NCBI RefSeq assembly: GCF_000568815.1
Contig: NZ_CP007201.1
Span: 496,001-560,000, forward strand
Source: Sulfurospirillum multivorans DSM 12446
GTDB lineage: Bacteria > Campylobacterota > Campylobacteria > Campylobacterales > Sulfurospirillaceae
Direction: 5' to 3'
Length of the DNA: 64,000 nucleotides
Part shown: positions 51,942 to 63,775 of the stretch, piece after piece
Layout of the letters: each line of letters starts with the position of its first letter
How positions within the stretch are numbered: position 1 is the stretch's first letter
Program-made: the position numbers and the translations under genes
The notes under the pieces: generated by a model
Told to the model about the DNA's origin: nothing
Seen by the model: the letters and a program-made list of their open reading frames with translations, nothing else
The model's database searches: none

Positions 51942-52001
51942 AGCAATCATAAATTTTTTTATACTACAATGAGTGTTAATAATTCTCATTCAGGAGTGAG
52001 C

Positions 52002-53411
52002 ATGCGCCTGTTACTACTCAATAATAATCCCGCTGTTTCAAGATTGATCAAACTTAGTGCCGAAAAAGCTGGGTATGAGTTAGACGAGTTTGAAGATTAC
52101 GGCTTAGTGCCACTCACAACGTACGACCTCATTTTAGTGGACAATGAACTCTATGATGAGAATGCCCTCGTAGCACTTCGTGAACATACAGACTGTGACT
52201 ATGTCGTCTACATCTGCCAAAGAGGTTCCAAAAAACCTGAAGCGGTCAATGTGGTACTTGAAAAACCCTTTTTGCCAACCGATTTTTTAGTCCTTTTAGA
52301 GAAGATTAAAAATGTGATTGAAAGTCATAAAGCTGAAGAGGTTACTGAAGATCCCATAGCGACATCTTCTGCAACAACCGATGCTTTTGATATTGATCAA
52401 ATCGATACGCTTGAGGGCGAAGATGATATGCTTCCTATCAACCTTCTTGAAGAGTATGACAATGACTTTAAAAAAGAGGAATCAAGCGAGCAAAGGGATA
52501 GCTTTGACGACCTTGAACGTGATGATTTGAATTTAGATGATAACGCTTTGGAAGATAAACAGAGTGACCTCGAAGAAAAAGAGTTGACGCTGGAAGATCC
52601 ATTCTCATTTGATGCGGTTGACTCTTTGGATAAAGAGGCTCCAACGTCTTTTGAAGATTTTGATTTTGAAGAAGAACCGAGTACTGTTTCGTCGTCTCTT
52701 GATGAAGAAGAGGTGCATAACCCTTCTATTTTGGATAAAGATGATATTGATGAAGTGAAGCAGCTTTTAGATGAAAGCGAAGAAGAAGAGGATGAAAAAG
52801 AGATTGACGCATTGTCATTGGATGCGCTTGGTATCGAAGAAGATGATGCGGGAACCTTCTTCTTGGATGAAGAAGAAAAAGAAGAAGAAGAACCTTTGGT
52901 AAAAGAGGAAGATTCTTTAGCGCTTGAAGCAGATGATATGTCTGATTTAACCTTTGAAGATGTTCCTCCCGTAGAAGACGAGATGGAAGATGCGCTTGAA
53001 AAGGACACGGTTGTTGCAGAAGATCAAGAAGAGATTATTGATGATTTTGCAGAAGTGATCGAGGAAAAAATAGAAGAAGAGAAAGAACAGGCATTAGAAG
53101 AAGAGGAATTCCTCCCAAGTCTTGATAGTGCCCTTAGTGGATTGGATGATGCGCTAGGAGAGATTGACTCTTTGGATGATCTCAATGAAACTATGCTCAA
53201 AGTCGCTTTTGGTGAAGAGGTTGAAGAAGAAGCTGAAGCTCCTGCTCCTGTAGCGACTGAAGCTCCAAAAAGCCAAGATATTGAAGTGATTCGCGATGAG
53301 ATTGAAAATAGTATTGCGCGTAGTATCTCAAGCTTAGCGCAAAGCGATATTTTACGTGAAGCGCTTAAGGGAATGCGTCTGAATATCTCCATTACCTTTG
53401 ATGAGAAGTAG
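52002..53411 (+). CDS. Highly acidic protein with N-terminal receiver-like domain
   Basis: Protein of about 469 residues from the ATG at 52002 (AGGAG upstream); an ATG at 51969 has no ribosome site. Residues 1 to about 115 resemble a response-regulator-type alpha/beta fold (MRLLLLNNNPAVSRLIKLSA, YDLILVDNELYDE, VVLEKPFLPTDFLVLLEKI). A low-complexity region rich in Glu, Asp and Ser follows (about 120-420), then a helical end (about 430-469, SQDIEVIRDEIENSIARSI). Campylobacter has a highly acidic protein at the same place beside fliR and gmk (from memory). Its role is unknown; polar or flagellar organisation would be a guess. Confidence 0.8.
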   Translation: MRLLLLNNNPAVSRLIKLSAEKAGYELDEFEDYGLVPLTTYDLILVDNELYDENALVALREHTDCDYVVYICQRGSKKPEAVNVVLEKPFLPTDFLVLLEKIKNVIESHKAEEVTEDPIATSSATTDAFDIDQIDTLEGEDDMLPINLLEEYDNDFKKEESSEQRDSFDDLERDDLNLDDNALEDKQSDLEEKELTLEDPFSFDAVDSLDKEAPTSFEDFDFEEEPSTVSSSLDEEEVHNPSILDKDDIDEVKQLLDESEEEEDEKEIDALSLDALGIEEDDAGTFFLDEEEKEEEEPLVKEEDSLALEADDMSDLTFEDVPPVEDEMEDALEKDTVVAEDQEEIIDDFAEVIEEKIEEEKEQALEEEEFLPSLDSALSGLDDALGEIDSLDDLNETMLKVAFGEEVEEEAEAPAPVATEAPKSQDIEVIRDEIENSIARSISSLAQSDILREALKGMRLNISITFDEK

Positions 53412-56777: not shown

Positions 56778-56794
56778 TCTTTACATGTAAAGAT
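56777..56794. terminator. Extended palindrome between convergent nuclease and GGDEF-EAL genes
   Basis: An 18-base perfect palindrome (ATCTTTACATGTAAAGAT) containing the TTTACATGTAAA core (56780-56791) begins at the nuclease gene's stop and is followed by TTTT; the opposite gene ends at 56797. Confidence 0.65.
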
Positions 56795-56796
56795 TT

Positions 56797-58701
56797 TTAG
56801 GCGTCTATTAACGGGCTAGGCGTTGAGAAAAAGAGTCCTTGCGCATACTCAATGCCCAAAGATTGAATCATCCCATAAATGGATGCATCGCTGACATACT
56901 CAGCAATCACTTTAATCTGTGCTTCCTTCGCAAAGGCAACAATATTTTTGACCAATAAAAAAGAGATTTTATCGTCTAAAACTTTCTGAATAATCGCCCC
57001 ATCGATTTTAATATAATCAGTTTTTATCTCTGCCAGATAGATGAAATTGGAGTAGCCGCTACCAAAATCATCGATGTAAATCGTATAGCCCAACGATTTG
57101 AGCATCAAAAGATTGTTTTTGGCATCTTCTCTGTTGGTAATATCTTCGGTTTCGATGATCTCAAGTCCAAGCCTTGGGGCAATATTTTCTTGCAGTGCAT
57201 AGTTTTTTAAAATGCTAAGGATCGACTCATCAATCACATCATGCGGATTGAGATTGACGCTAATGCTCACCTTGGGATGGCGTAGCAGCTCTTCGTAACA
57301 GATACTCAGCACCTCTTTGGTGATATTGCGTAAAATGAAGGTGCCTTTAATAGTCGGAAGAATGCGATCAGGCAAAATAACGTTTCCATTCTTATCGATG
57401 ATACGAAGCAGTGCCTCGTAGTGTGAAAGCTCTTGGGTAGTTGTGTGGACAATTTTTTGATAGTAGCACTCGATACGATGCTCTTCAATCGCTGCTTTAA
57501 TCTCATTAAGTGACATACAGGTATTTTGCGTATTTTCATTCTCATCGTAAATTTCTATAGTATTGCGACCTTTTGTTTTGGCATTATAGAGTGCAATATC
57601 AGCTAGTTTAAAAGCCTCTTGGAAGGTTCGTGATTTATGGGGGACAAGGTTAACACCGATGGAAACGGTGATTTTAATCGACTCTTCGTCTGAGATAGCA
57701 AAGGCATTTTCTTGGATAGCGTAAAAAATGCGCTCAATCATATTAAGAGCAATCAAATGCCCATCTCTGCGTGTTTTGGCAAGGATTAAAAACTCTTCGC
57801 CGCCATAGCGTATGACAATGTCATCTTTATGTCTGATGGTCAGCAAAATGGTACTGGCGACTTGTTTTAAAATGGTGTCGCCGACATCATGCCCGTAGGT
57901 GTCATTGACTTTTTTGAAATAGTCAATGTCGAGTGTTGCGAGGATGTAATCGTCAAGGTTAATAAAATCTTCATATTTTTGAAGGTAATTTCGATTGTAA
58001 ACATTGGTTAGTTTATCGATAAAAGCACTTCTTCTAACGGCACTAAACCGTTTGGTTTGAATGATAACAAAGATAAGTATGGCAAAAATAACGCTCATAA
58101 CACCCAAAATACCATTTTGGATGGTATGAATAATTTGATTGATCTCTTCAATTTTATCGATGGAAAAATCAATCGCTAAAATCAGCTCGACATCGCCTTT
58201 ATTTAAGATGGGAACCAAATAACTGATCGAGAGTTGTTGCAAGAGGGTATGTCGAATGATAAGTGGCGCTTTTGTGCTATAAATTTGCAGCCATTCAGGG
58301 CTTTCGACATCCAGTTTTTGATCAATAAAGGCTTTTTCTTCATGAATGGAAGCATCGCTTAAAAAGCGAAAAACACCTCTGTTATCTCGGTACAAAAGGT
58401 AGGCGTATTTGATATGCGGCGTTAAGAGTGTTTTTAAACTCTCTTCAATTTTGCGCTGAAGAAAACTATTTTTTTTAATATCCTCAGAGAAATGGGTACT
58501 CTCTTTTAAAAGCGTTTCGATATAGGTTGCACTGTTATGGGTAATAGAAAAAACATCGGAGGTCGAAATTTCAAAAATTTTAGTTTCAATGCTTTTTTCA
58601 AGCCGCATCGTTGCTAAGAGCAAAAAAAGCAAAATAGAGGCGATGACGATAATAGGAACGAGCATATAAAAAGGATTTTTAAACAAAGGCTTCTTATGCA
58701 T
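56797..58701 (-). CDS. GGDEF-EAL membrane protein (c-di-GMP turnover)
   Basis: Protein of 634 residues. TM1 (about 12-31), a periplasmic sensing region (about 32-195), TM2 (about 197-220), GGDEF (about 228-390) with IRYGGEEF intact but no RxxD inhibitory site (HKDD instead), and EAL (about 400-630) with YEALLRI, LEIIETED, IDDFGSGYSNF and DYIKIDG. Both active sites look intact; the EAL signature is complete, so it may act as synthase, phosphodiesterase or both. The ATG at 58701 overlaps the upstream periplasmic-protein gene stop by one base. Third gene of the TonB-receptor operon, so its activity is likely tied to that receptor's ligand (inference). Confidence 0.9.
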   Translation of the reverse strand: MHKKPLFKNPFYMLVPIIVIASILLFLLLATMRLEKSIETKIFEISTSDVFSITHNSATYIETLLKESTHFSEDIKKNSFLQRKIEESLKTLLTPHIKYAYLLYRDNRGVFRFLSDASIHEEKAFIDQKLDVESPEWLQIYSTKAPLIIRHTLLQQLSISYLVPILNKGDVELILAIDFSIDKIEEINQIIHTIQNGILGVMSVIFAILIFVIIQTKRFSAVRRSAFIDKLTNVYNRNYLQKYEDFINLDDYILATLDIDYFKKVNDTYGHDVGDTILKQVASTILLTIRHKDDIVIRYGGEEFLILAKTRRDGHLIALNMIERIFYAIQENAFAISDEESIKITVSIGVNLVPHKSRTFQEAFKLADIALYNAKTKGRNTIEIYDENENTQNTCMSLNEIKAAIEEHRIECYYQKIVHTTTQELSHYEALLRIIDKNGNVILPDRILPTIKGTFILRNITKEVLSICYEELLRHPKVSISVNLNPHDVIDESILSILKNYALQENIAPRLGLEIIETEDITNREDAKNNLLMLKSLGYTIYIDDFGSGYSNFIYLAEIKTDYIKIDGAIIQKVLDDKISFLLVKNIVAFAKEAQIKVIAEYVSDASIYGMIQSLGIEYAQGLFFSTPSPLIDA

Positions 58702-59156
58702 TAAAAATTCTCAACAAACTGATCAAAGGTTTTTGGCAGCTCTATTGCTTTTATTTCAAGCCTTTTTTGGATAAAGACGATATTTGGCCTGCTTTTATTC
58801 CAAAAAAGTGCCCCAAAATACTTCTCATCGGAGAGAAGCTTGCGGTAGTTGTTGGTAAAAAAGAGTCGGTTTGTATTATCGCATAAACTCTCTTTTTCGA
58901 CAGATTTATTGACAAAAACAAAGTTGGATGTTTCACATTTTGAACTCAGTGTAAAATATTTTGAATAGACTTTTTCTTCCATCTCTGACATATGCGGGAT
59001 AAAAAGTTTTATTTTTCCATGCAGTGAAGCAGTCGCAATTTCAGCAATAATTTTTGCCTCAAGCTCAACCTCTTTACTGTAGGGTTGTACCAAAAAAGTA
59101 TAGTTTTCGGAACTCAAAAAGCTTAAAAGTGTGATAAGAAGGATAAGTACTCTCAT
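58701..59156 (-). CDS. Small periplasmic protein of the TonB receptor/GGDEF-EAL operon
   Basis: Protein of 151 residues with a signal peptide (MRVLILLITLLSFLSS) and two cysteines (CETSNF, SLCDN) that could form a disulfide. No family was recognised. The ATG at 59156 overlaps the receptor stop (TAATG) with AAGGTGG upstream. It sits exactly between the outer-membrane receptor and the inner-membrane GGDEF-EAL protein, so a signal-relay role like that of YfiR toward YfiN is a reasonable guess; there is no sequence proof. Confidence 0.7.
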   Translation of the reverse strand: MRVLILLITLLSFLSSENYTFLVQPYSKEVELEAKIIAEIATASLHGKIKLFIPHMSEMEEKVYSKYFTLSSKCETSNFVFVNKSVEKESLCDNTNRLFFTNNYRKLLSDEKYFGALFWNKSRPNIVFIQKRLEIKAIELPKTFDQFVENF

Positions 59157-61051
59157 TAGAATACCCACCTTATTGAGAAGGTGACACTTCGATCATTGTC
59201 ATCTAAAGCAAAAAACCCAGATCCTAAATTAGTAAAATAAAGTGATTGTGTAGAGCGATCTAAAATATTGTTGGCTTTAAGACTGTAGCTCAAATCTTTT
59301 GTCACATGATAGGTCACACCAAAGCTCATATCAAAGCTATCGGGAATATCAAGACCCAAGTATTCATACCCATTTCGATAGATAATCGAGGTAAAGTAAT
59401 CAAACTTCTGGTATCCTCCCATAAATTTGACATAACCCCCTTTGGTGGAGTTGTTAATGGTTTCACTGAGTGTGGATGTATAGTAATTTAAATGGATTTT
59501 GTCTCGTTGTGAGAAGCTGTATTCATAGTCAAAAAGAAGTCCATTGGTTTTAATTCTGTGATCAATATTGATAAACCCAATCGGTGAGAGATAAAGAAAA
59601 TCATCAATCTCCACATGATCAAATGTCACTCCAAATTTTGAGTTACCTTGCGTATAAACGCCCTCGAGTGAGTAGATATAGTATTGTTGCGATGTGAGTG
59701 CTGGCTTACTGGTATCGGCATAATCAACGTTATAAAAAGAAGGTGCTAGGGCTGTTTGGGTGTAAAAGCTTTTAAATCCCCAATTATCAGTAGGGGTGTA
59801 GATGGCTCCCACTCGCAATAGTGTCTCAGAACTGTCTTTCAAATAGGCATTTCGATCGTAATAGTCAAGCTTCGTGTTAGCGACTAAAATAAGGTCATCT
59901 CTCAGTTGATAACTGTCCTGAAAGAGTAATGAAGAGATGGTCTCCTCATCAAAATCGCTAAAGTGCCCTATAGAACTATTTGTATTGCTTTCTCTATTTT
60001 GGACATCATAGGTTTTATTTTTAACGTTTACAGCTGCGATAAAGGAGTTATCTTCGACATCAAATGATTTTGAAAGATAAGCATTCGTTTTGATAAAGCG
60101 TAAATCCTCACTATAACGTTTAGGCCCGCTAGGACCATATTGAGAAAAAGTGATTAAAGGAACAATAGCAATTCCTTGCGTATTTTCTTCCTCGTAACTG
60201 CGATCATTCACATCAACCGAGAGGTTGGCTTTAAGCGATTTATCTTCTAAAAAAGAGTGCGTAACATCAACGAAAAAGTCTTTCGAGAGACTCTTCCCAC
60301 TATTGGGTGTGGCATCAAAGGCAAGACCGGCGTAGTTGTTTTTAGAAACATCGGTATACCCCATATTGATTTTTGTGGTTTCGTTGCTAATATCAGCATA
60401 GAGGTACTGTTTTGTGCCATTTGTATTAAGTTTTTGACCGTTGTAAATGGAGGTATATTTGATCTTTTCGTGATTCAAGAACATCAAATAAGACCAGCCA
60501 TTTTCAAAGCTTGCAGAGTTGGTGAAACTTTGTGAGTTTGAGCCTTTAGAGGTAATCCAGCTATTAATCTCAGAACTATTCTCTTTAAGCGCTGATTTGG
60601 TGTAGATACGTACAAAATAGATGCCTGTTTCATTGCCAAACGAAAACGAGCTCTCTCCGTAATAGATCTCGACATGATCAACAAAATCTAAAGGTAAATC
60701 GCTCCAAGAGAGTGAGGTGGACTGATCGTAGCCTGAGCTGATTTCATGGTCATTTATAAAAAAGCGAAAAAAGCCGCTGGTCGTTGTTTTTGAGCCTGTG
60801 AGCGAGTAGTTGGTGAGTCCAAATTGGTTGGTATTAATGTTAAAAAGCGGCAGTTCTTTTAAAATATCATTGAGCTTGGTGTATTGCATGAGGCGGATCT
60901 CTTTTTGAGAATAAATCACCACATGCCCGATCTTTTCATTGACCGTTTGCAAAGAGTTATCAGACGTTGATTTATACTCTTGCAAGAGGGCATCAAGTGA
61001 GTCAGAAAAGAGTAGACTACTAAGGAGTCCAAGCAGCACAATAATCTTCAT
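59156..61051 (-). CDS. TonB-dependent outer-membrane receptor
   Basis: Protein of 631 residues: signal peptide (1 to about 16), plug domain (about 40-150: VVIYSQKEIRLMQYTKLNDIL, DFVDHVEIYYGESSFSFGNETG), then a beta-barrel ending in the outer-membrane C-terminal aromatic SFSIRWVF. The ligand is not deducible; siderophore or metal uptake is common. No ABC importer genes are beside it; instead a periplasmic protein and a GGDEF-EAL protein follow, hinting at a sensing role. A TTACATGTAA (61069-61078) merges into AAGGA upstream of the start. The upstream PerR/Fur gene is on the same strand. Confidence 0.88.
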   Translation of the reverse strand: MKIIVLLGLLSSLLFSDSLDALLQEYKSTSDNSLQTVNEKIGHVVIYSQKEIRLMQYTKLNDILKELPLFNINTNQFGLTNYSLTGSKTTTSGFFRFFINDHEISSGYDQSTSLSWSDLPLDFVDHVEIYYGESSFSFGNETGIYFVRIYTKSALKENSSEINSWITSKGSNSQSFTNSASFENGWSYLMFLNHEKIKYTSIYNGQKLNTNGTKQYLYADISNETTKINMGYTDVSKNNYAGLAFDATPNSGKSLSKDFFVDVTHSFLEDKSLKANLSVDVNDRSYEEENTQGIAIVPLITFSQYGPSGPKRYSEDLRFIKTNAYLSKSFDVEDNSFIAAVNVKNKTYDVQNRESNTNSSIGHFSDFDEETISSLLFQDSYQLRDDLILVANTKLDYYDRNAYLKDSSETLLRVGAIYTPTDNWGFKSFYTQTALAPSFYNVDYADTSKPALTSQQYYIYSLEGVYTQGNSKFGVTFDHVEIDDFLYLSPIGFINIDHRIKTNGLLFDYEYSFSQRDKIHLNYYTSTLSETINNSTKGGYVKFMGGYQKFDYFTSIIYRNGYEYLGLDIPDSFDMSFGVTYHVTKDLSYSLKANNILDRSTQSLYFTNLGSGFFALDDNDRSVTFSIRWVF

Positions 61052-61158: not shown

Positions 61159-61584
61159 CTATGAAGATGCCCTTAACGTTTTAGCCGCACATACTTTACA
61201 CATACCATTCATAACGATAAAACTATGACTAATCTGAAAACCACTTCGCAAAGAAATTGTCTCTAAAAAGGGTTTTGTCTCCATAAACATATCTTCGACA
61301 CTGCCACATTCTGAACATAAAAGATGAATATGGGGTACTTTTTTTATCTCGTACTGCTGCTTTTGCTGCGGAAGTTTAACCTCTTCTAAGATGTGAAAGG
61401 AGATGAGATCGTTGATGTTTCGGTAAAGCGTTGCTTTGGACATTGTCGGGTATTTATGAAAAATGGCGTCGTAAAGTGTGTCAATATCGACATGTCCAAA
61501 CTGATCGATTGAATCTAAAATCGCAAGTCTCTGGTGCGTTGATTTGAGATTGCTTGCTTTTAAAACGTCTTTAAACCGATCCAT
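61159..61584 (-). CDS. Fur/PerR-family metalloregulator
   Basis: Protein of 141 residues. Winged helix with STHQRLAILDSI and MSKATLYRNINDL; C-terminal metal sites CSECG and CKVCA are the structural zinc CxxC pairs of PerR-like members. It probably responds to iron or peroxide and may control the divergent peroxidase gene and the TonB receptor (inference from position). The ATG at 61584 has AAAGGA ten bases upstream, contributed by the palindrome at 61599-61608. Confidence 0.9.
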   Translation of the reverse strand: MDRFKDVLKASNLKSTHQRLAILDSIDQFGHVDIDTLYDAIFHKYPTMSKATLYRNINDLISFHILEEVKLPQQKQQYEIKKVPHIHLLCSECGSVEDMFMETKPFLETISLRSGFQISHSFIVMNGMCKVCAAKTLRASS

Positions 61585-61598
61585 CTGAATGCTGTCCT

Positions 61599-61608
61599 TT
61601 ACATGTAA
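61599..61608. repeat. TTACATGTAA palindrome merging into the PerR/Fur gene ribosome site
   Basis: On the coding strand it reads TTACATGTAAAGGACAG, so its right arm forms the AAAGGA ribosome site. Confidence 0.85.
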
Positions 61609-61661
61609 TGCTAAATTTTATAGGAGCTGAACTTAATAAGATATTAACTATCCTATTTATT

Positions 61662-61728
61662 CCTTAAAAATAATGAGAAATAATTCTAAATAAGATTAAT
61701 TACTATTTAAGATTTAAATTCATATACT
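61662..61728 (+). promoter_or_regulatory. Peroxidase promoter region with possible Fur/PerR box
   Basis: An A/T-rich stretch with AATAATGAGAAATAATT (about 61668-61684) loosely resembles a Fur/PerR box. A -10 candidate TATACT lies at 61723-61728, about 30 bases before the ATG. The operator is tentative; no site was tested against a matrix. Confidence 0.3.
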
Positions 61729-61756
61729 TCTATCACAAACTTAAAAAGGAGAAGAA

Positions 61757-62785
61757 ATGAAAATTTCTAAGGTACTTAGCCTTTGTGCACTCAGTGCAAC
61801 CGTTGTTTTCGGAGCGAACACGCTGGTAGATAAGGTGAAACAAAATGGAATCGAAGCCATTCCTGTAAGTCAACTGGAAATTTTAAAGCTAATTGATGAT
61901 CCTAAGGATCCAATTACGACTGCGAAAGTAGAACTGGGCAAAAAACTCTACTTTGATCCTCGTATGTCACGAAGTTCCATCATCAGTTGTAACACCTGTC
62001 ACAACCTTGCAACAGGCGGTGTTGATGGCATTAGTGCTGCAATCGGTCATGGTTGGACCGCCAACCCGCATCATCTGAACTCTCCAACGGTGTATAACTC
62101 TGCCTTTTTTAAAGCACAATTTTGGGATGGCAGAAGCCCACACTTGGCCGATCAAGCACAAGGTCCTGTTCAAGCAGGCCCTGAGATGGCGGCACCTCCA
62201 AAATTAGTTGAAGAGCGCATTAACTCCATTCCTGCCTATGTGGAAGAGTTTAAAGGTGCATATGGTGATAATGTGAAAATCTCATTTGAGAAAATTACAT
62301 CCACGATTGCGATTTTTGAAAAAACCTTGGTTACCCCATCGCGTTTTGATGATTTTTTAAATGGCAATGCAAATGCATTGAGTAAAGCTGAAAAAGAGGG
62401 GTTGGAAGTGTTTATGGATAAAGGGTGTGCGAGTTGTCATAATGGTATCGCCTTAGGCGGTACGATGCAACCTTTCCAAGTCGCTGGGAAATATAAATTT
62501 GCGCAAGTCGGTGATTTTGCGGGCGATAAAAACGGATTGGTCAAAACACCAACGCTTCGCAATATCACAGAAACAGCACCATACTTCCACAACGGAGCGA
62601 TCTGGACACTTAAAGATGCGATCAAAGAGATGGGAAGTACACAGCTTGGTATTAGCATCAATGACGTTGAGAGTGCTAAAATTGAAACATTCCTTAAAGC
62701 GTTAAAAGGGAGAAAACCAGTGGTGATTTATCCTGAGCTTCCTGAGAGCAGTGAGAAAACGCCAAAACCTGACGCAAAACTTTAA
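61757..62785 (+). CDS. Dihaem cytochrome c peroxidase
   Basis: Periplasmic enzyme reducing hydrogen peroxide with cytochrome c. 342 residues: signal peptide (1 to about 20, ending VVFGA), haem motifs CNTCH (C78-H82) and CASCH (C224-H228), the LYFDPRMSRSS, HHLNSPTVYNSAF and TPTLRNITETAPYFHNGA segments of the CcpA/MauG family. AAAAGGAGAAG precedes the ATG. It is divergent from a PerR/Fur gene, which suits peroxide control. A double-hairpin repeat follows it. Confidence 0.93.
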   Translation: MKISKVLSLCALSATVVFGANTLVDKVKQNGIEAIPVSQLEILKLIDDPKDPITTAKVELGKKLYFDPRMSRSSIISCNTCHNLATGGVDGISAAIGHGWTANPHHLNSPTVYNSAFFKAQFWDGRSPHLADQAQGPVQAGPEMAAPPKLVEERINSIPAYVEEFKGAYGDNVKISFEKITSTIAIFEKTLVTPSRFDDFLNGNANALSKAEKEGLEVFMDKGCASCHNGIALGGTMQPFQVAGKYKFAQVGDFAGDKNGLVKTPTLRNITETAPYFHNGAIWTLKDAIKEMGSTQLGISINDVESAKIETFLKALKGRKPVVIYPELPESSEKTPKPDAKL

Positions 62786-62893: not shown

Positions 62894-63775
62894 TTACTCT
62901 ACGCCTCTTACTTTTTTCATCTCGTCTTCGCGCTCTTTGAGGAAAAGTTCAAGATTGTATTTTTGACGATACACTGGCGTCATAAGGTGAATTAAAATGT
63001 CTCCCATATCAATAACCGTCCAGTTATCATCGGCGTCGACGTTTAAAAAACTCTCCCCCGCACCTTTGAGTTCGGTTTTGAGGTGATCTAAAAGTGAAAG
63101 ACCATGTCTCTCTCCCATCGTGGTTGCAATCACAACCGTGTTGACAAAATAGTCTTTGCCTGTCATATCAAACACTTGTATCTCTTCTGCTTTTTTATCA
63201 CTGAGTGCTGTGACAATTCTTTCGATTCTGCTATCCATTGGATTCCTTGTATAAAACGCCATCACTTCATTTTCGATGCTTTTGGGAATAAATCTTCGAT
63301 CTAAAAATGAGCGGAGCTTTGAAGAACTGATATTAACATTAATTGGTAAAATTTTCAAGTCTTCAGGCGGGTGAAAAGCACCACGAGGAGCTACGACAAA
63401 TTCTACGTGAGAGCAAAGCTCGTCATAGCGGTTCCATTTGGGCAAAGCGGTGAAACTGTCACTTCCCACAATGAGATAAATCTTGGCATTTTTGTAAAGA
63501 TGCTTTACATGTAAAACCGTTTCAATGGTCGGAACCTGTCTTTTTTGATCGCATTCGTACGAAAAAATCTCTACTTTTTCCATGCCTTCAAACATCTTCG
63601 CAAGCCAACGTTGGCGCATCGGAGCAGGGGCACAAAAACTCTCCTTAAACGGACTTAAGTAGGTCGTTACGACTAAAAGTTTGTCAATATCGAGAATTTC
63701 AAGGGCTTTTTGGACAATGAGCTCATGCCCTGTGTGAGGAGGATCGAAAGAGCCTCCAAAAATAGCTATGTTCAA
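62894..63775 (-). CDS. NadD-RsfS fusion: nicotinate-nucleotide adenylyltransferase plus ribosome silencing factor
   Basis: A single frame of 293 residues. Residues 1 to about 178 are NadD: GGSFDPPHTGHELIV (nucleotidyl-transferase HxGH), IVGSDSFTALPKW and SISSSKLRS-type ISSSKLRSFL, the step making NaAD for NAD+. Residues about 180-293 are RsfS (DUF143): MDSRIERIVTALSDKKAEEI, VIATTMGERH, DDNWTVIDMGDILIHLM. These are usually two adjacent genes. There is no stop between them; an AAGGA five bases before the internal ATG (63235-63237 on the + strand) suggests that RsfS may also be made alone. Palindrome 63504-63515 encodes LHVK. Confidence 0.9.
   Translation of the reverse strand: MNIAIFGGSFDPPHTGHELIVQKALEILDIDKLLVVTTYLSPFKESFCAPAPMRQRWLAKMFEGMEKVEIFSYECDQKRQVPTIETVLHVKHLYKNAKIYLIVGSDSFTALPKWNRYDELCSHVEFVVAPRGAFHPPEDLKILPINVNISSSKLRSFLDRRFIPKSIENEVMAFYTRNPMDSRIERIVTALSDKKAEEIQVFDMTGKDYFVNTVVIATTMGERHGLSLLDHLKTELKGAGESFLNVDADDNWTVIDMGDILIHLMTPVYRQKYNLELFLKEREDEMKKVRGVE

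Follow-up and report, generated by a model that had tools for sequence, protein, structure and literature searches.

A conserved Campylobacterales operon of a TonB-type receptor, a predicted YfiR-like periplasmic protein and a GGDEF-EAL protein as a probable Yfi-type relay across the cell envelope

We analyzed a stretch of 64,000 nucleotides from the genome of Sulfurospirillum multivorans DSM 12446 (a single contig of 3.18 Mb, NZ_CP007201.1; positions 496,001 to 560,000, hereafter the window), and within it an operon of three genes encoding a TonB-type outer-membrane receptor, a small exported periplasmic protein and an inner-membrane protein with GGDEF and EAL domains (Table 1). An earlier reading of this DNA, made from the letters alone (the sequence-only reading), had described these genes as joined by one-base overlaps in the order receptor, periplasmic protein and inner-membrane GGDEF-EAL protein, and this was confirmed at both junctions, where a TAATG lets the stop codon and the next ATG share one base. 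An alternative GTG start codon 12 nucleotides upstream would extend the small protein to 155 amino acids.

Table 1. Genes and protein features of the operon (positions are those of the window)
Feature	Position	Strand	Remarks
TonB-type outer-membrane receptor, 631 amino acids	59156..61051	(-)	signal peptide, plug domain, predicted barrel ending in Phe
Receptor residues 33-42, S..T..E..G segment between signal peptide and plug	60926..60955	(-)	near-invariant
Small exported periplasmic protein, 151 amino acids	58701..59156	(-)	YfiR-like predicted fold
Inner-membrane GGDEF-EAL protein, 634 amino acids	56797..58701	(-)	Pfam PF00990 + PF00563
Periplasmic single-Cache/PAS-like sensor (predicted), residues 37-192	58126..58593	(-)	between two predicted transmembrane helices
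GGDEF domain, residues 226-380	57562..58026	(-)	GGEEF active-site motif at 300
EAL domain, residues 399-628	56818..57507	(-)	EALLR, VNLN, IETE, DDFGSGYS, IKIDG, IAEYV, YAQG

In the receptor, Pfam recognized the plug domain PF07715 (34.7 bits, with a cut-off of 23.9), and the 22-strand barrel family PF00593 was not detected. An obvious TonB box is replaced by the conserved S..T..E..G segment, whose residues are kept among 88 aligned receptors at 94% (S), 99% (T), 84% (E) and 100% (G), and which may be a variant of the TonB box or a contact site for the relay proposed below. No Pfam match to the STN signalling domain, FecR or FecI was found in any of the three operon proteins.

The inner-membrane protein matches the GGDEF and EAL families with 120.7 and 181.6 bits, respectively, and keeps the GG[DE]EF and EAL catalytic motifs. 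GGEEF or GGDEF is present in 85 of 93 aligned rows, and the RxxD of the I-site is missing in the window protein and is not among the most frequent motifs listed for these rows. One relative (L093) carries a degenerate GGDEF motif, with both domains still found by Pfam. The AlphaFold2 model of the periplasmic region has a mean predicted local distance difference test score (pLDDT) of 89.5 and finds its closest fold in the WalK sensor 4ywz_B (Z-score 15.8, 140 residues aligned, root-mean-square deviation (rmsd) 2.3), the row above it being 9a5d, a model of a WalK complex. On this model, the region is predicted to be a single-Cache/PAS-like domain; neither CHASE8 nor HAMP gave a Pfam match in this protein.

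The distribution of the module was followed in 298 genomes of the order Campylobacterales. As a single query, the small protein found matches in 97 of these genomes, while a profile built from 65 relatives (A1; 65 of the 101 small proteins from the window and 100 loci were included) located the family at 128 places in 104 genomes. A second profile (A3), made from the periplasmic sensor region of the GGDEF-EAL protein, located the sensor at 123 places in 106 genomes. From these places, 115 pairs of small-protein and sensor genes lie adjacent on the same strand, and 102 genomes carry both, two the small protein only, four the sensor only and 190 neither (Fisher p 3.7e-72, a value not to be taken literally since the genomes are related). 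The co-occurrence is not due to chance. We then considered the neighbours of 118 fetched loci, which had been picked by the small protein alone with their context ignored and which contain 119 gene hits, one locus yielding two. According to a family hidden Markov model, 114 of the 119 hits have a member of the same receptor family upstream of the small protein, and a sensor-bearing protein lies downstream at 107. The co-occurrence of the families, a point raised by the sequence-only reading, was thereby borne out, and the pattern that it had named as speaking against its proposal, namely homologues of the small protein standing mostly with ABC (ATP-binding cassette) importers and not with GGDEF-EAL proteins, was not seen in that slot, a statement that covers the slot and not a scan of all flanks. 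The module is conserved across many Campylobacterota, and we are practically certain that the three genes form a genuine unit. Among the 87 modules passing the length filters, the pairwise distances of the three proteins are correlated (r 0.86-0.91), which reflects co-inheritance only and was not used as evidence of contact.

The protein downstream of the small protein varies in its output domains. The 119 hits comprise 71 with sensor, GGDEF and EAL, 21 with sensor and GGDEF, 13 with sensor and histidine kinase, two with the sensor only, one with a kinase without sensor and 11 with none of these. The GGDEF-EAL output of the sequence-only reading therefore holds for the 71, but elsewhere GGDEF alone or a histidine kinase takes its place. 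Kinase outputs were called by Pfam in L109, L115, L132, L135, L136, L138 and L218, with HisKA below the cut-off in several and L109 cut by its contig. In 11 of 15 cases, the gene after the sensor-kinase encodes an EAL-domain protein whose N-terminus looks receiver-like, the receiver being shown by Pfam in L132. Because the sensor is shared by these exchanged output domains, one front end would feed the making of cyclic di-guanosine monophosphate (c-di-GMP), its breaking, or both. Output domains also change between close relatives, since in three loci of the window's own genus (L049, L050 and L053) the EAL half is gone, leaving GGDEF-only proteins of 387-393 amino acids. As for irregular loci, the order is permuted in L130, where a GGDEF-EAL protein with the sensor immediately precedes the receptor, the distance rule of the count overlooked a sensor-kinase in L137, and L212 and L213 stop at or near a contig edge. 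No single complete frame covers the receptor in L042 or L043 (313 amino acids in one, 317 and 286 in the other), and the genes for the small protein and the GGDEF-EAL protein look whole.

Family searches left the small protein without a name. Neither Pfam nor NCBIfam returned anything credible, DUF4154 (PF13689), the family of YfiR and HmsC, gave no match to the window protein at E ≤ 10, and PF13689 had only sub-threshold chance matches in the organism's own genome, none of them over the cut-off. Likewise, nothing credible was found among sequences of solved structures with either the window protein or the A1 profile as query, and a plasmid collection yielded no match to the family. The most conserved motif of the family is GAFFWQKGRPNI near the C-terminus (GALFWNKSRPNI in the window protein), which forms the C-terminal pair of strands in the AlphaFold2 model (pLDDT 91.1), and G115, K121 and R123 are invariant across 65 aligned small proteins. 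When this model was compared with known structures using VIA-align 2, the top match was YfiR (4xjy_D, Z-score 10.4, 123 residues aligned, rmsd 3.2, 6% identity); the YfiR rows reach Z-scores of 9.4-10.4 over 119-124 residues, and the first row beyond YfiR and the single-lobe or ABC_sub_bind-like chains has a Z-score of 7.2. These structural neighbours are of the same kind as those given for YfiR itself, whose closest folds, according to its structure paper (PMC4655355), include 3LFT and an uncharacterised Vibrio cholerae protein. A profile of 31 DUF4154 proteins (A2) was also aligned to A1 with hhalign. The probability was 95.5 with the signal peptides included, much of it coming from the signal peptide, and the score without signal peptides was 29.3, compared with a mean of 11.5 and a maximum of 19.2 for 200 column-permuted controls, which are a mild control. 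In this alignment Phe128 of the small protein pairs with a strand that possibly carries the YfiN-binding Phe162 of YfiR; we do not claim a kept YfiN-binding site, as only 8 of the 31 DUF4154 rows have a Phe at the position aligned with Phe128. The small protein is very probably YfiR-like in its architecture, and we read it as a remote relative of YfiR that lies outside DUF4154 by Pfam's rule. By sequence, it forms a distinct family without a name, whose members were seen here in a single order of Campylobacterota.

Genuine DUF4154 proteins fill the same slot, both in Campylobacterota and in annotated Proteobacteria. PF13689 scored over its cut-off in 38 of the 298 genomes, and the best 40 of 55 matches were fetched, 33 of which are shorter than 230 amino acids and were counted as stand-alone. 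A TonB receptor stands within 120 base pairs (bp) at 28 of these 33 loci and a gene for a GGDEF protein or a kinase at 24, with 20 showing both; all nine tested receptors beside DUF4154 proteins show plug and barrel by Pfam. In L169 the neighbour of the DUF4154 protein is a CHASE8-HAMP-GGDEF protein, CHASE8 being a sensor of the YfiN type. L171 and L172 combine a DUF4154 protein and a receptor with the sensor family of the window operon (E 4e-26 and 1e-27), here carried on a kinase. Single-chain fusions occur as well: DUF4154 is joined to GGDEF in L194:5926-7428 and L195:2248-3792 and to SpoIIE in L196:4567-6480, in each case with a TonB receptor 8 bp upstream, and to a histidine kinase-receiver in L198:3928-6537. 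Among annotated plasmid records, a TonB receptor stands directly upstream of YfiR in seven of nine inspected, out of 11 matches. The annotated order TonB receptor, YfiR and EAL protein is found in Pseudoalteromonas Bsw20308, two Caballeronia and Paraburkholderia D15, and the order TonB receptor, YfiR and ATP-binding protein in Sphingobium B90A.

These observations led us to favour the view that the operon is a Yfi-type relay across the envelope, with a TonB-type receptor as the outer-membrane input in YfiB's place, and that a signal would probably travel from receptor to relay to sensor. In the Yfi system of Pseudomonas aeruginosa (PMC3375315), YfiB sequesters YfiR and thereby frees YfiN, and it is from this precedent that we infer the arrows of the model. 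The state of the receptor, whether ligand-bound or not and possibly coupled to TonB, would alter its periplasmic face, and the YfiR-like protein would partition between this face and the GGDEF-EAL protein, whose balance of c-di-GMP synthesis and breakdown would be reset once its single-Cache domain is bound. The small protein is taken here as an inhibitor that the receptor sequesters, by analogy with P. aeruginosa YfiR; this inhibitory sign is a tentative choice, and the opposite sign is possible. The path from outer membrane through periplasm to c-di-GMP drawn by the sequence-only reading finds good support in the conserved gene order, while ligand sensing and physical contact stay conditional in our model as well. 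Its description of a logic like that of YfiBNR but with different parts needs amending: the outer-membrane part does differ, but the relay is YfiR-like in its predicted fold, and true DUF4154 proteins stand in its slot.

The comparison with YfiBNR (TpbB/AwsXRO in P. aeruginosa) can be made part by part. Both systems have an outer-membrane part, a soluble periplasmic relay of (here predicted) YfiR fold and a c-di-GMP enzyme in the inner membrane whose periplasmic domain is of the PAS/Cache type, and output swaps to GGDEF-EAL proteins and kinases are also described for distant Yfi homologues in PMC3375315. They differ in that the operon has a plug-domain TonB-type receptor where YfiBNR has the OmpA/PAL-like lipoprotein YfiB, in that its relay falls outside Pfam DUF4154, in that its sensor lacks a Pfam match to CHASE8 or HAMP whereas YfiN consists of periplasmic PAS/CHASE8, HAMP and GGDEF, and in that its enzyme carries an EAL domain. 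The loci of Campylobacterota and other Proteobacteria in which a TonB receptor and a DUF4154 protein precede a CHASE8/HAMP/GGDEF protein, a GGDEF-EAL protein or a kinase share the gene order and the overlaps, but their relays are true DUF4154 proteins. TonB-dependent transducers are known from FecA-FecR-FecI cell-surface signalling, and the receptor of the module is predicted to signal across the envelope in the same general manner; unlike FecA-type transducers, it has no STN match, no FecR or sigma factor is present among the three genes, and the output consists of c-di-GMP enzymes or kinases.

Several observations weigh against this interpretation. DUF4154 is absent from the Pfam families shown for 65 members of the small-protein family (25 of 38 listed), Foldseek alone gave YfiR an E-value of 0.012 with no match at E ≤ 0.001, and the hhalign probability between A2 and A1 is 50.3 without signal peptides. 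The YfiR score is moreover tied with single-lobe substrate-binding-like proteins from Rhodothermus (6k1y, Z-score 10.2) and Vibrio (3lkv, Z-score 10.3, rmsd 10.3), so that a ligand-binding role instead of an adaptor role is possible. At the level of gene content, five loci have a receptor and a small protein with no sensor gene behind them: L089 consists of these two only, and L065, L066, L067 and L079, all from genomes of one genus (g8), continue with a HAD-like protein of about 153-160 amino acids, identified by Pfam in L065 only and by reading and length in the other three. Two further loci, L071 and L210, have the small protein with neither receptor nor output.

The tie in structural scores would also fit a binding-protein co-sensor, i.e., a case in which the receptor, with its plug domain, imported a ligand that the single-lobe protein captured before docking in its liganded form on the Cache domain. 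There is a parallel in NspS-MbaA, another pair in which a periplasmic protein probably works on a GGDEF-EAL protein: NspS, a two-lobed binding protein that controls MbaA, probably docks on it in a comparable way, and it is not known to have a TonB receptor as partner. Next to the Rhodothermus chains, two-lobed sugar-binding proteins follow at Z-scores of 6-7. Yet the small protein has one lobe only and no obvious inter-lobe cleft, its most conserved motif is the C-terminal strand pair of the model with no evident ligand pocket, and, as the sequence-only reading had also noted, no importer adjoins the module among the window neighbours tested with Pfam. We consider such a co-sensor unlikely. 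The five loci without a sensor gene would instead suit a receptor chaperone or accessory subunit, which gates the plug or assists assembly, while the c-di-GMP enzyme senses a small ligand of its own through its Cache domain, a fold typical of direct ligand sensors, and merely shares the regulon. This is quite improbable in view of the 115 adjacent small-protein and sensor pairs, the near absence of the sensor where the small protein is absent, and the presence of DUF4154 instead of the small protein next to this sensor family in L171 and L172.

A looser association has also to be weighed given the surroundings of the operon. The neighbours tested with Pfam were named as a FUR-family regulator, a di-haem CCP_MauG peroxidase, Endonuclease_NS, an RsfS/CTP_transf protein and guanylate kinase. 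The FUR-family regulator lies directly upstream of the receptor and, together with the divergent peroxidase gene, occupies 61159-62785; in several loci of the same genus, genes of matching length stand upstream of the module, a hint at iron or peroxide control there. An iron or haem TonB receptor linked to these two genes in the ordinary way, with no signalling tie, would account for this arrangement, but in the neighbour lists of other genera neither gene is seen beside the module, while the three-gene core is kept, and we regard such linkage as very improbable. A promoter scan was uninformative (14 sites, with 16.5 expected).

Two further features of the window were noted. A very acidic, low-complexity protein of 480 amino acids with an N-terminus that looks receiver-like by eye is encoded at 51969-53411. 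In addition, the 12-base palindrome TTTACATGTAAA occurs throughout the window, for instance at 1827-1838, 56780-56791 and 63504-63515, with 28 matches at no more than one mismatch compared with 0.37 expected. Exact copies number 730 in the organism's own genome and 14-792 in all 19 genomes searched from the same genus (its own included), and each of 12 genomes from other genera has 0-1; the palindrome is a genus-specific repeated motif.

The Yfi kind of system is known, and what is new here is the unnamed relay family and the TonB-type receptor as the outer-membrane part. Our literature search found no paper tying a TonB receptor to YfiR signalling, with subscription journals mostly outside its coverage. 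According to Malone et al. 2012 (PMC3375315), yfiB is missing from nearly all of the Yfi operons that diverge most, and distant Yfi systems swap their outputs. A receptor in YfiB's place would explain many of these distant systems without YfiB, for which a TonB-type receptor is the candidate outer-membrane input. More speculatively, TonB-type receptors might form a general class of outer-membrane inputs for c-di-GMP, apart from FecR/sigma factor signalling, in which they act as sensors and not as importers and a YfiR-fold shuttle connects them to an exchangeable output (cyclase, phosphodiesterase or kinase). If a TonB-type receptor is indeed the input, specific extracellular ligands could be read into c-di-GMP with no signal imported to the cytoplasm. 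The module also puts an unnamed family, found in about a third of the genomes of the order (104 of 298), in a definite setting and suggests what it may do.

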